Shown: positions 4,254 to 59,660 of the stretch, in pieces
Layout: each line of letters begins with the position of its first letter
Position numbering within the stretch: position 1 is the first letter of the stretch
Origin: a bacterium
GTDB lineage: Bacteria; Joyebacterota; Joyebacteria; Joyebacterales; Joyebacteraceae
Assembly: GCA_025774935.1 (NCBI GenBank)
Contig: JALGZK010000005.1
Span: 1 to 64,000 of the forward strand
Direction of reading: 5' to 3'
Length of the DNA stretch: 64,000 nucleotides
The notes under the pieces: generated by a model
What the model was told of the DNA's origin: nothing
What the model saw: the letters and a program-made list of their open reading frames with translations, nothing else
Database searches by the model: none
Program-made: the position numbers and the translations under genes

Positions 4254-5372
4254 ATGCGACGACTGGCAACAGTGCTTGCGGCGCTCGTGCTGATCCTCGG
4301 GCTCACGGCGACGTCCGCCGGCAAGCCCGTGAAGAGCCCCGAGGGGTGGTCCGCGCCGACGCGCGGGCTCCTCGACTGCACGATCTCGCCCGGACTCAAC
4401 TGCGCGGGCGTGGTCGTCGGGGACAACATCGGCGCCCCGAACAACGTCAGCTTCTACGGGTGCACGTCGTGGAACGAGAGTGGCGGGGAGGTCGTCTACG
4501 AGTTCGTCATCGAGCGAGTGTGCTACTCGTTCACGGCGACGCTCCTGAACACCACCGCCGACCTCGACGTGTTCATCGTGGGAAGCTGTGACGAGAACGA
4601 CTGCATCGCGTACGGCGACACGTACGCAACGAGCCCGTGCATCGAGCCCGGGACCTTCTACGTGGTCGTCGACGGGTACAATGGCGCCGAGGGGTACTTC
4701 GAGCTCGAGGTCGAGTGCGAGGTCTGTGGCTGCCCCGAGCCCCCGTGCGCACCGATGGTCTTCCACTGCAACGAGCTCGACTTCAACCTCGACAGGGCCG
4801 ACTACACGACCGAGGCCTGTGAGGGCGGAGCCTCGTGCTGGGAGTGGGGGATGCCGCTCGAGGGGACCATCCCCGGCATCGCCTGCGAGGACAAGGAAGT
4901 CACGAACATCCTCGGGACGTTCCTCATAGGACCGTACACGACGTGCGGCGAGAGGGCTATCGTGGGTCCGTTCTCCATCAACGCCGATTGCTGGTGCCTA
5001 GAGCTCTGCCACTACTACGACACCGAGCCGCGATACGACGGCGGGAACGTGAAGATATCGATCGACGGCGGGGCAACGTGGGAGATCATCGTCCCCGCGC
5101 GTGGCTACGACGACATCGGGTCGAGCTTCGGCGCTGCGTGCATCGCAGACCAGCCGATCTTCACGGGGCACGGGAGTGCGCACAGCTTCCAGACCGACTG
5201 CTTTGACCTGAGCGAGTACACCGGCAAGGAGGTCCTCATCGCTTTCGACTTCGGAGCCGACGGCTCCACTGCCTACGTCGGCTGGTACATCCAGTGGGTC
5301 ATGGTCGGCGGCCACAACGTCTCGCCGACGGAAGACCGGACGTGGGGTTCGATCAAGTCGCTCTACAAGTAG
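4254..5372 (+). CDS. Secreted pre-peptidase C-terminal (PPC)-like domain protein with C-terminal TWGSIKSLYK motif
   Basis: Signal peptide MRRLATVLAALVLILGLTATSAG; CYSFTATLLNTTADLDVFIVGSCDENDCIAYGD...GTFYVVVDGYNGAEGYFELEVEC PPC-like; ends SPTEDRTWGSIKSLYK. Confidence 0.75.
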   Translation: MRRLATVLAALVLILGLTATSAGKPVKSPEGWSAPTRGLLDCTISPGLNCAGVVVGDNIGAPNNVSFYGCTSWNESGGEVVYEFVIERVCYSFTATLLNTTADLDVFIVGSCDENDCIAYGDTYATSPCIEPGTFYVVVDGYNGAEGYFELEVECEVCGCPEPPCAPMVFHCNELDFNLDRADYTTEACEGGASCWEWGMPLEGTIPGIACEDKEVTNILGTFLIGPYTTCGERAIVGPFSINADCWCLELCHYYDTEPRYDGGNVKISIDGGATWEIIVPARGYDDIGSSFGAACIADQPIFTGHGSAHSFQTDCFDLSEYTGKEVLIAFDFGADGSTAYVGWYIQWVMVGGHNVSPTEDRTWGSIKSLYK

Positions 5373-53934: not shown

Positions 53935-54229
53935 GCAAGGTAGAGATGTGGATGCTCTCGTCTTCTGGGGACAAGGGACGAGGCAAATCCACGTCTATAC
54001 GTCCATGCATCGTCCGTAGGGAGGACAGGCCGCGAGGACGTCGGCCTGGTCTTCCAGAGACGAAAGGAGGTACGGCGAGTCCTGCTGGACACCCGGTCAT
54101 CGCCCGGTCGTCAGCACGACGGAACGACCGTCGTCGGCAACGTGCGAACGCAGCAGTGCGATGGGTTTGATCGGGCTTCGGGTGGACGGGAACGAAGTTG
54201 TTAATGTTGAGCACTCGTATCTGGAGGGA

Positions 54230-54841
54230 ATGATGAAGAAGCTGCTTCTCATTCTGTTGGTTGGTCTCTTCGCGGTTCCGGCCGCGAACGCGGCAGTCGT
54301 GACGTACGGCTGGGAGGACGGCGGCACGATCCTCAGCCAGTACGGCGACATCACAGCCACGAACGTCGGTGACGTGGTCCACACCGGCGCCCGCTCGCTC
54401 TACCTGGTCGACCAGCAGGCGAGCGGTACGCCCGAGGTGTTCGTCGCGTGGGTCGTCGGTCTCACCGACGGCGACGAAGTCACCGCCACCATCTGGCGCT
54501 ACGACACGACGCCCGGCGCGTCCCCGTCCTGCAGGATCTGGGGTGGGTACACGTCCGTCGGCGGCACGATCGACGACTACGCCGGCAGCGCCGGTGGCAA
54601 CAGCGACTACGGCCCCGGCACCGGCTGGGACCAGACCGGTCACACCTGGACGTTCGACTCGAGCGGCGGCACGCGCGACGGTCTCGTCATCAAGGTGCGC
54701 ACGTACTCGTCTCCCGGCGACTTCGTCTGGGTCGACGACCTCGAGGTGATCTACCCCGACGGAACGACCGCGTACATTCCGGAAGCCGCGTCGCCGGTCG
54801 AGGACAGCACGTGGGGCGGCATCAAGGCCCTGTACCGGTAG
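54230..54841 (+). CDS. Small secreted protein with C-terminal TWGGIKALYR motif (copy 1)
   Basis: MMKKLLLILLVGLFAVPAANA signal; SYGWEDGGTILSQYGDITATNVGD..SLYLVDQQASGTPE; ends SPVEDSTWGGIKALYR. Confidence 0.8.
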   Translation: MMKKLLLILLVGLFAVPAANAAVVTYGWEDGGTILSQYGDITATNVGDVVHTGARSLYLVDQQASGTPEVFVAWVVGLTDGDEVTATIWRYDTTPGASPSCRIWGGYTSVGGTIDDYAGSAGGNSDYGPGTGWDQTGHTWTFDSSGGTRDGLVIKVRTYSSPGDFVWVDDLEVIYPDGTTAYIPEAASPVEDSTWGGIKALYR

Positions 54842-55060: not shown

Positions 55061-55089
55061 TTGACACCTCAGAGGGGGGATAGTACATT
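55061..55089 (+). promoter_or_regulatory. Sigma-70-type promoter
   Basis: TTGACA - 17 nt - TACATT upstream of CDS at 55157. Confidence 0.65.
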
Positions 55090-55156
55090 CAGATAGTGAC
55101 TCTTGATAAGTTATTACATTGGCGCACATTGTGTGCGTCGAGATGAGGAGGGAGGA

Positions 55157-55765
55157 ATGAAGACGCGTCTTGCTATAGCAATTGCGGTTCTTCTGGTCTC
55201 CGCTCCGGCGCTCGCCCTGACCACTTCGTACGGGTGGGAGGACGGCGGGACGATCCTGAGCCAGTTCGGCGACATCACCGCCACGAACGTGGGCGATCAG
55301 GTCCACAGCGGCGACCGCTCGCTCTACCTGGTCGATCAGCAGGCAAGCGGCACGCCTCAGGCGTTCGTGGCCTGGGTGGTCGGACTCACCGACGGCGACG
55401 AGGTCACGGCCTGCTTCTGGCGCTACGACACGAGCCCGGGAGCGTCGCCGTCCTGCAGGATCTGGGGTTCCTACACGGCAGTCGGAGGGACGATCGACGA
55501 CTACGCCGGGAGCGCCGGCGGCAACAACGACTACGGACCCGGCGAGGGCTGGGACGAGGTCTGCCACACGTGGGTCTTCGACTCGGACACCGGCGCCCGT
55601 GACGGGCTCGTCGTCCAGGTGAGAACCTACTCGAGTCCCGGCGACTTCGTCTGGATCGACGACCTCGAGGTCACGGCGCCCGACGGCACGGTGATCCACG
55701 TGCCGACGGTGACGCCGGTGAACGAGAGGACGTGGTCGGGCATCAAGGCCCTCTACGGCCCCTGA
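55157..55765 (+). CDS. Small secreted protein, tandem copy 2 of 54230..54841
   Basis: Near-collinear with copy 1 (GWEDGGTILSQFGDITATNVGDQVHSGDRSLYLVDQQASGTPQ); ends TPVNERTWSGIKALYGP. Confidence 0.8.
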   Translation: MKTRLAIAIAVLLVSAPALALTTSYGWEDGGTILSQFGDITATNVGDQVHSGDRSLYLVDQQASGTPQAFVAWVVGLTDGDEVTACFWRYDTSPGASPSCRIWGSYTAVGGTIDDYAGSAGGNNDYGPGEGWDEVCHTWVFDSDTGARDGLVVQVRTYSSPGDFVWIDDLEVTAPDGTVIHVPTVTPVNERTWSGIKALYGP

Positions 55766-55918: not shown

Positions 55919-55966
55919 CCCGTCCACCACGCCACTTGGGGCTCGATCAAGGCGCTCTACCGGTAG
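55919..55966 (+). pseudogene. Orphan coding tail (remnant) carrying TPVHHATWGSIKALYR-stop
   Basis: In-frame ACGCCCGTCCACCACGCCACTTGGGGCTCGATCAAGGCGCTCTACCGGTAG-type tail aligns to the last residues of 54230 and 55157 products, with no recognisable gene body upstream. Confidence 0.5.
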
Positions 55967-56137
55967 GCAGCGAACCAGGCGAGGGCCGCCCGGACGTCGT
56001 TCCGGGCCTCGTTGACAGCGCTCCTGGACCGTGCTAGATTCGACGGAAACGAGACCCGCCGGGGGAGGGGTACAGCCGCCCCCGGCGATTTCCGGACCCC
56101 GGAACCACCCGATACACAGGAACCATCGGAGGAGACG

Positions 56138-56821
56138 TTGGGCAAGAGGAAGCGCATATCCAAGAAGGGGCTCAAGCACGACGCCCTGCTCGAGACCGCC
56201 GCGAAGGGATCGAAGTTCGTCGAGCACCACCTGAACACGGTCGTCATCGGCGTCATCGCCGTGGTCGCCGTCGTCGCCATCGTGACCCTGTTCGTGCGCT
56301 CACGCCGCGGGACCGAGCTTGCCTCCAGCGCCGCCCTTGCCACGGCCACACAGACTCTGAACTCCGGCCTCACCGCGCAGGCCGCGCAGGAGTTCGAGTC
56401 CCTGATCGCGGAGTACGGCGGAACCAGGAGCGCCGGCGCCGCCACCTGCTACCTCGGCACGATCTACTTCCACGAGGGCAGGGTCGACGAGGCCAACGAC
56501 CTCTTCAACGAGTACCTCGACCGCTTCGGCCCGTCCGGCAGCCTCGGCATCGTCGCCCTCGAGGGGAAGGCGGCCGTCCTCGAGCAACAGCGCGACTTCC
56601 TGGGCGCCGCCGCCATCCACGAGGAGCTCGCTGACCGCTCCGCCGAGATCGAGCCCTCGGCCGTCCGGTACCTCCTGGCGGCCCTCCGGAACTACCGCTC
56701 GGCGGGCGACTGGCCCTCTGTGCAGGACGCCGCCACCCGGATGCTCGACGCGTATCCCGAGAGTCCGCGCGCGCCCGAGGCGCGCGTGCTCCTCGCGGAA
56801 GCGGAGACGCATCCCGGGTAG
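56138..56821 (+). CDS. Membrane-anchored TPR protein (YfgM-like)
   Basis: TTG start at 56138 after GGAGG; HHLNTVVIGVIAVVAVVAIVTLFV TM helix; YLGTIYFHEGRVDEANDLFNEYLDRFG TPR. Confidence 0.7.
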   Translation: MGKRKRISKKGLKHDALLETAAKGSKFVEHHLNTVVIGVIAVVAVVAIVTLFVRSRRGTELASSAALATATQTLNSGLTAQAAQEFESLIAEYGGTRSAGAATCYLGTIYFHEGRVDEANDLFNEYLDRFGPSGSLGIVALEGKAAVLEQQRDFLGAAAIHEELADRSAEIEPSAVRYLLAALRNYRSAGDWPSVQDAATRMLDAYPESPRAPEARVLLAEAETHPG

Positions 56822-56889: not shown

Positions 56890-56974
56890 CTCACCGCACC
56901 AGCCCAGAAGCCCCAAACGCCCGCGCGGCCCCCGCGTGCCCCCGGGAGCGCCGCCCCGTGGCGCCTCTCTCAAT

Positions 56975-57002
56975 ATGTCGCATAATTCATATTATGTAAA
57001 CT
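56975..57002. other. Putative chromosome dimer resolution site (dif), XerC/XerD target
   Basis: ATGTCGCATAA-TTCATA-TTATGTAAACT; 20/28 identical to E. coli dif GGTGCGCATAATGTATATTATGTTAAAT, right arm identical to the recalled B. subtilis dif right arm TTATGTAAACT; located at the strand switch. Confidence 0.85.
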
Positions 57003-57164: not shown

Positions 57165-59660
57165 CTACTTCACCACCAGGTTCACGAGCCGATCCGGAAC
57201 GAAGATGACGCGCTTGAGCTCCCTGCCCTCGAGGTGCTTCGCCACGCGTTCGTTCGACTGCGCCAGAGCCACGACGGCGGCCTCCTCGGAGCCGCGCGGG
57301 ACCTCGACGGTGCCCCTGAGCTTGCCGTTGATCTGGATGGCGATCGTGACGACGTCCTCCCGGGCCGCCTCCTCGTCGAATGCGGGCCACGGCTCCGCGA
57401 AGATCGAGCGCGTCGAACCCGCTCGCTCCCAGATCTCCTCCGCGAAGTGCGGGACCATCGGCGCCAGGAGGAGCACGATGTTCCGCACGGCCTCCCTCAC
57501 GGCCGCCTTCTCGAGCCCCGAGGGCTTCGCCCCGGAGAGACCGTCGACGAGCGCGCGCGTGCCGTTCGAGAGCTCCATGACCGCGGCGACCGCCGTGTTG
57601 AAGTGGAAGTCGTCCATGTCGCGGGTGACCTTGCGGATCGTCTGGTGCGTCTTCCTATGCAGCTTGTCCACGTTGTCAGGGAGCTCGGGAGCCGCCAGGA
57701 GCTTCGCGTCGGCCGAGCCGTTCGACGCGTCGAACGGCCACTCCCCCACAAGATTCCAGACGCGATTCAGGAACCGGTACGCACCTTCGACGGCCGTGTC
57801 GCTCCACTCCGCGTCGCGGTCGGGCGGGCCGATGAACAGCGTGTACAGACGCTCGGTGTCGGCGCCGTAGCGCGCGATGAGCTCGTCGGGCGGCACCACG
57901 TTGCCCTTCGACTTCGACATCTTGGTGCCGTCCTTGTTGATCATGCCCTGGGAGAAGAGCCGCTCGATCGGCTCGTCAAATCCCGTGAGCCCGAGGTCGT
58001 GGAGCACCTTCGTCATGAACCGGACGAAGATGAGGTGTCCGGTCGCGTGCTCGATGCCGCCGATGTACTGGTCGACCGGGAACCAGTGGTTCACGTCGGC
58101 CGTGACGAACGGAGCGCGCTCCTCGTCCGGCGAGACGTACCGGAAGAGGTACCAGCTCGAGTCGACGAACGTGTCGAGCGTGTCGGTCTCCCTCCTCCCC
58201 TTCCCGCCGCACTTCGGACACAGAGCGTCGAGGAAGCTCTCTGATGTTGTGAGCGGCGACTCACCTTTCCCGCTGAACGTGACGTCGGTCGGGAGCAAGA
58301 CCGGGAGGTCCTCCTCGGGAACGGCGACCGGTCCGCACGCGTCGCAGTAGATGACGGGGATCGGCGTCCCCCAGTAGCGCTGCCTCGAGACGAGCCAGTC
58401 GCGGAGGCGGTAGCTCACCGTCCGCCTGCCGATGCCCTTCGTCTCCATCCAGTCGGCGATCTTCTCCAGCCCGTCTCGGTTCGGAATCCCGTCGAACTCG
58501 CCCGAGTTAACCTGGACGCCGTCCTCGACGTAGGCCTCCCCCATCGCGTCGACCGAGAGCGGGTCGCCCGGCCGGTCGATCACCACCCGAATCGGGAGCC
58601 CGTACTCGCGAGCGAACTCGAAGTCTCGCTGGTCGTGGGCCGGGACCGCCATCACCGCGCCGGTGCCGTACTCCATGAGGACGTAGTTCGCCACCCAGAG
58701 CTGGACCCTCTCTCCGTTCACCGGGTTCAGAACGTGGCGGCCCGTCCAGACGCCGACCTTCTCCACGTCGGCGGCGCCCCGCTCGATCGCGGCCTGCGCC
58801 TTGACCTTGTCGGCGAACGCAAGGACCTCGGTCTCGCGCTCGGTCCCGGCGACCACCTCCCGGAGCATCGGATGCTCGGCGGCCATGACCATGTACGTCA
58901 CTCCGAACGTGGTGTCCACGCGCGTCGTGAAGCACGGGAGCGGATCCCCGGTCTCGGCGACCGTGAAGTCGATCTCGACGCCCTCGCTCCTGCCTATCCA
59001 GTTCCGCTGCATGATGCGGACGCGTTCGGGCCAGCCCTCGAGCCGGTCGAGCCCCTCGAGAAGCCTGTCGGCGTAGTCGGTGATCTTGAAGAACCACTGC
59101 TCCAGGTCGCGGGTCCCGACGACGCTGTCGCACCGCTCGCACTTCCCGTCGACCACCTGCTCGTTCGCGAGCACCGTCGCGCACGACGGACACCAGTTCA
59201 CCGACGCGCCCTTCCGGTACGCGAGCCCGTGCTCGAAGAGCTTCACGAAGATCCACTGGGTCCAACGGTAGAAGGAGGGCTCGTGCGACGCGAACTCGCG
59301 GTCCCAGTCGTACCCGATCCCCCACGCCCGGAACTGCTCCTTCATCTTGACGATGTTCTGGTCGGTCCAGACGGGCGGGTGGATGCCCCGCTCGATGGCG
59401 GCGTTCTCCGCAGGAAGACCGAACGCGTCCCAACCCATCGGGGTCAGCACCGACCTCCCCCGCATCATCTCGTAGCGGGCCACCGCGTCGCCGATGATGT
59501 AGTTCCTCCCGTGTCCGACGTGGAGGTCGCCAGACGGATACGGGTACATCACCAGGCAGTAGTACTTCTCCGAAGCGTCGGTGGCGCAGCGGAAGAGACC
59601 GTCGTCATCCCACCGGGTCTGCCACTTCGGCTCGATCTCGGCGAACGGGTAGCGTTCCAT
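57165..59660 (-). CDS. leuS: Leucyl-tRNA synthetase
   Basis: MYPYPSGDLHVGHGRNYIIGDAVARY, GWDAFGLPAENAAI, MSKSKGNVVPPDELI (KMSKS). Confidence 0.97.
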   Translation of the reverse strand: MERYPFAEIEPKWQTRWDDDGLFRCATDASEKYYCLVMYPYPSGDLHVGHGRNYIIGDAVARYEMMRGRSVLTPMGWDAFGLPAENAAIERGIHPPVWTDQNIVKMKEQFRAWGIGYDWDREFASHEPSFYRWTQWIFVKLFEHGLAYRKGASVNWCPSCATVLANEQVVDGKCERCDSVVGTRDLEQWFFKITDYADRLLEGLDRLEGWPERVRIMQRNWIGRSEGVEIDFTVAETGDPLPCFTTRVDTTFGVTYMVMAAEHPMLREVVAGTERETEVLAFADKVKAQAAIERGAADVEKVGVWTGRHVLNPVNGERVQLWVANYVLMEYGTGAVMAVPAHDQRDFEFAREYGLPIRVVIDRPGDPLSVDAMGEAYVEDGVQVNSGEFDGIPNRDGLEKIADWMETKGIGRRTVSYRLRDWLVSRQRYWGTPIPVIYCDACGPVAVPEEDLPVLLPTDVTFSGKGESPLTTSESFLDALCPKCGGKGRRETDTLDTFVDSSWYLFRYVSPDEERAPFVTADVNHWFPVDQYIGGIEHATGHLIFVRFMTKVLHDLGLTGFDEPIERLFSQGMINKDGTKMSKSKGNVVPPDELIARYGADTERLYTLFIGPPDRDAEWSDTAVEGAYRFLNRVWNLVGEWPFDASNGSADAKLLAAPELPDNVDKLHRKTHQTIRKVTRDMDDFHFNTAVAAVMELSNGTRALVDGLSGAKPSGLEKAAVREAVRNIVLLLAPMVPHFAEEIWERAGSTRSIFAEPWPAFDEEAAREDVVTIAIQINGKLRGTVEVPRGSEEAAVVALAQSNERVAKHLEGRELKRVIFVPDRLVNLVVK

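Follow-up and report, generated by a model that had tools for sequence, protein, structure and literature searches.

The dif site is the spot near the terminus at which bacteria separate sister chromosomes that have been accidentally fused. The proposed course of events would begin when an odd number of crossovers joins the sister chromosomes as a dimer. FtsK, located at the division septum, would then translocate the DNA in the direction of the terminus, with polar G-rich motifs as its guide, until it meets XerC and XerD on the 11-bp arms of two dif copies. The gamma domain of FtsK would activate XerD, and strand exchange by the recombinases at the 6-bp centre would restore two monomers. A review of the XerCD/FtsK pathway describes translocation of FtsK to XerCD-dif, activation of XerD by gamma, and resolution of the dimers (PMC5357621); XerCD binding, activation and recombination at the site described here are presumed by analogy with this known pathway. 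The closest described systems are E. coli dif with XerCD/FtsK and B. subtilis dif with CodV-RipX, and the two dif reference sequences were checked in PMC3025954 (Kono et al. 2011).

A 28-bp site with the 11-6-11 layout, ATGTCGCATAATTCATATTATGTAAACT, lies at 56975-57002 (+) of the window, the whole stretch of 64,000 nucleotides that was analysed, and is almost certainly the chromosomal dif, of the XerCD/FtsK type, in a relative of Candidatus Eisenbacteria. It shares 20 of 28 bases with E. coli dif, a figure given in the original prediction and obtained again on recounting at exactly the predicted position, and 21 of 28 with B. subtilis dif. The 11-6-11 layout, the CGCATAA left core, the TTATGT right core and the set of xerC, xerD and ftsK-gamma are alike in E. 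coli, whereas 8 of the 28 bases differ and the right arm ends in TAAACT here and in TTAAAT there. Against B. subtilis, the right arm is identical over all 11 bases, as had been predicted, while the left arm is of the CGCATAA type here and reads CCTAGAA in B. subtilis. By analogy with the E. coli orientation, the left arm ATGTCGCATAA (56975..56985, +), whose CGCATAA is invariant in 19 genomes, would be the XerC-binding arm, and the right arm TTATGTAAACT (56992..57002, +), nearly invariant in the relatives, would be the XerD-binding arm. The central region TTCATA (56986..56991, +), the part of the site that varies among relatives, would by the same analogy be where the strands are exchanged.

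The match score is far above chance: on both strands of the 333,840-bp contig, the next-best 28-mer elsewhere reaches 17/28 against E. coli dif and 16/28 against B. subtilis dif, and a relaxed dif pattern matched nowhere when the window was shuffled 100 times. The claim that the site is the only clearly AT-rich spot held in part, in that the lowest-GC 28-nt region of the window contains it, but a second stretch at about 55061-55120 is nearly as AT-rich, with 38% GC compared with 37% at the dif site (60 nt). An outer palindrome, ATATGTC...GACATAT, around the window's dif was considered and dropped, as the relatives do not conserve it.

In the whole draft genome (3,244,105 bases, 40 contigs), only this one match with three or fewer mismatches was found, so the genome-wide search for rival 28-mers yielded none. 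Of the 20 genomes of the phylum, 16 contain a single match to a 24-base version of dif, and in three more a relaxed core is matched perfectly and once; the relaxed core was not found in G018, which is 57% complete and is the sole exception among the 20. The conservation anticipated for the site is therefore borne out, with a single copy in 19/20 phylum genomes and the same convergent gene junction around it. In all 19 genomes the left arm keeps CGCATAA and the right arm keeps TTNTGTAAAC (N = A or C) unchanged, the centre varies, and the flanking intergenic DNA diverges while the dif core stays the same. Constant arms with a variable centre between them are what two recombinase arms flanking an exchange region should look like. 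A chance AT-rich spacer that happens to resemble dif was weighed on the ground that the site lies between convergent genes, a setting in which AT-rich terminators may be found; such a coincidence is extremely improbable given the weak next-best match and the empty shuffles, and the conservation of the 28-mer, with its core invariant in 19 genomes amid diverging flanks, refutes it by itself. The exact core CGCATAA-N5-ATTATGTAAAC was also found in Aminicenantes, Myxococcales, KSB1, Gemmatimonadales, Desulfuromonadales, Bacilli and others.

The dif site is flanked by two genes that both point towards it. On the left is a gene for a TPR-domain protein (56012..56821, +; TPR_21 above the Pfam cut-off), whose coordinates are those of an ORF call with the true start possibly downstream, and on the right is leuS, for leucyl-tRNA synthetase (57165..59660, -; Pfam editing and catalytic domains). 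The TPR gene adjoins dif in 16 relatives, at 45-79% identity, and leuS does so in 16 relatives, where the contig permits; neighbours missing from the remaining relatives are accounted for by short contigs or short flanks. The convergent TPR-dif-leuS junction is the same in all relatives whose contigs show the flanks, spanning eight genera. An additional ORF between dif and leuS is placed by the gene caller in two relatives (G001:C25 and G012:C165). Xer-using mobile elements are known to carry dif-like sites (PMC5357621), and the 28-mer could in principle be a Xer scar or attachment site left by an integrated element such as an IMEX, a plasmid or a Xer-using phage. This origin is most unlikely: the site is present in a single genome copy and lies where GC skew and gene orientation switch, and the retention of the same flanking genes in eight genera refutes it.

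Further left of dif, a tandem pair of similar secreted-type proteins of a family that was not recognised is encoded at 54161-54841 and 55103-55765, and a short remnant ends at 55966; homologues are kept there in the relatives. Several predicted secreted proteins, including the two paralogues just left of dif, end in (P-V-E-x-x-)T-W-G-x-I-K-x-L-Y-R-stop. The T-W-G-x-I-K-x-L-Y-R motif occurs on the plus strand at 54812-54841, 55733-55765, 55937-55966 and 5343-5372; a DNA pattern for it has 30 matches in the organism's own genome and between 3 and 27 in every one of 19 relatives, and its reversed control has none. Outside the family, it was found in 2 of 18 genomes, one of other Eisenbacteria (4 matches) and one of Latescibacterota (1). 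The motif resembles a sorting tag and may be an undescribed C-terminal tag; a literature search on it found no paper.

Strand polarity, too, switches close to the site, as expected of the terminus region. Cumulative GC skew on the 334-kb contig rises to a maximum at 55,740, 1.2 kb from dif, and then falls steadily over the remaining 277-278 kb or so, in agreement with the proposal that the window reaches the terminus region, and a maximum near dif is likewise seen in six relatives whose contigs span the site. In these seven genomes, the maximum is offset by 0.9-1.9 kb to the XerC side of dif. Displaced termination was considered as the cause and rejected, since a conserved neighbour gene with a C-rich sense strand, the TPR gene, fills the interval in all seven; the offset is probably caused by the composition of this gene, and is thus not independent evidence for displaced termination. 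It has been argued that replication forks need not meet exactly at dif (PMC3025954); dif marks the segregation terminus. Gene orientation also switches at the site, with 211 of 224 genes on the contig pointing towards dif (35/35 on the left, 176/189 on the right) in an ad hoc call by a home-made, unbenchmarked codon-usage gene caller.

The KOPS of E. coli, GGGNAGGG, is oriented towards dif here as it is in E. coli, with 90 copies towards and 12 away, and rearranged words of the same letters are also skewed, by 2.6-12 fold. In eight relatives the ratio is 96:13, with the bias shared by similar G-rich words, and copies outside leading-strand genes, pooled from four genomes, are divided 31:8. A search for a lineage-specific KOPS was given up, as the skew extends to every one of the 56 words that six G, one A and one N can form and is stronger for GGGGAGG than for KOPS. 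The GGGNAGGG count records polarity; it is indistinguishable from general leading-strand G-richness and is no proven KOPS.

The proteins of the pathway, whose genes had been proposed as a check, are all encoded in the genome. A XerC candidate (C1:339388) scores 344 bits against the NCBIfam XerC equivalog cut-off of 335, and a XerD candidate (C1:359975) scores 354 bits against the XerD cut-off of 330; both are on contig C1, each lies below the equivalog cut-off of the other, and the XerD aligns along its length with the E. coli XerD structure 1a0p. The FtsK gene (C1:294062) has an FtsK_gamma match of 92 bits, the Pfam cut-off being 30.6, and its gamma domain was aligned to the solved structures 2j5o and 2ve8. 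Against the NCBIfam model of full-length E. coli-type FtsK, the N-terminally truncated query scores 452 bits with a cut-off of 1566, the match covering motor and gamma. An alanine in the gamma motif GYARAGR, where E. coli-type proteins have asparagine, was tried as a mark of the lineage and discarded, being common in other phyla.

Single-recombinase systems, namely XerH/difH, XerS/difSL and XerA, have been described (PMC5357621), and contig C16 carries a gene for a third tyrosine recombinase, which raises the question whether the dif belongs to such a type. The probability of this is minute: two separate genes pass the XerC and XerD equivalog cut-offs, the XerS profile scores far below its cut-off, and the site matches the classical dif. 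The third recombinase itself (G000:C16:5350-5949) has an open frame of about 370 residues, and several relatives also have a third. The original reading as an XerCD/FtsK dif is supported by the single copy, the skew peak, the conservation and the genes for XerC, XerD and a gamma-bearing FtsK. What the DNA itself shows is a unique and conserved site with constant neighbours, placed where strand polarity switches, in a genome that carries xerC, xerD and ftsK. Several equally good matches elsewhere, no skew inflection within a few kilobases and no conservation in relatives had been named beforehand as outcomes that refute the dif reading; all three were examined, none refuted it, and nothing was found against a chromosomal dif.

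Two features set the system of this family apart. The first is a pyrimidine-rich tract that abuts the XerC arm at 56963..56972 (+), positions -12 to -3 relative to the site. Its pyrimidine content averages 0.87 over 19 genomes, where the background is 0.51 (sd 0.05), and exceeds that of every other one of 1,800 windows within 900 bp, in statistics computed after the fact on a window picked by inspection of the alignment. Averaged by genus (eight genera), the content is 0.79 against 0.51, with 0.66 as the largest value away from dif; the tract is weak, at 0.6, in genera g4 and g8. The distance from the end of the TPR match to dif varies from about 45 to 363 bp, whereas that from the tract to dif is fixed in most relatives, so that the tract is anchored to dif. 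When 79 sites found by the same core pattern in other genomes, almost all of them from other phyla, were averaged, no tract was seen; the dif sites of other phyla share the exact core but on average have no pyrimidine tract beside the XerC arm. The tract was not seen in the genome of other Eisenbacteria that was examined (L134). A reading of the tract as the Shine-Dalgarno sequence of a gene on the opposite strand was rejected, since none of the sequences read has a start codon after it.

The second feature is an acidic tail after the gamma domain of FtsK, by which the protein differs from E. coli FtsK. A tail of 38-118 residues follows gamma in 16 of 16 readable relatives, 3 of the 16 tails running to the contig end, and consists of 37-72% Asp/Glu, mostly 50-72%, the shortest (L081) being weakly acidic. 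The set of tails comprises L074 (ftsK on G000:C1) and L066-L081. Seventeen FtsK proteins from other genomes, including that of other Eisenbacteria (G032), end 0-13 residues past the approximate end of gamma. No relevant paper on such a tail was found among open-licence papers. Tract and tail are two lineage-specific features that may be new. One tentative and rather unlikely proposal is that the family has modified its dif/FtsK machinery, the tract serving as an accessory element and the acidic tail altering how FtsK finds or activates XerCD-dif. A functional link between tract and tail is speculative and amounts to a guess, because both features mark one single clade.

As a dif, the site is unremarkable and adds one more example of a familiar element; a literature search turned up no paper in which Eisenbacteria and XerC are both named. 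By the evidence of sequence, the canonical XerCD-dif-FtsK system is extended to a family of uncultured Eisenbacteria, in whose draft genomes dif provides an anchor for the terminus and for strand orientation. The FtsK tail and the pyrimidine tract, being natural variations on an activation step that has been studied in depth, could teach something new.
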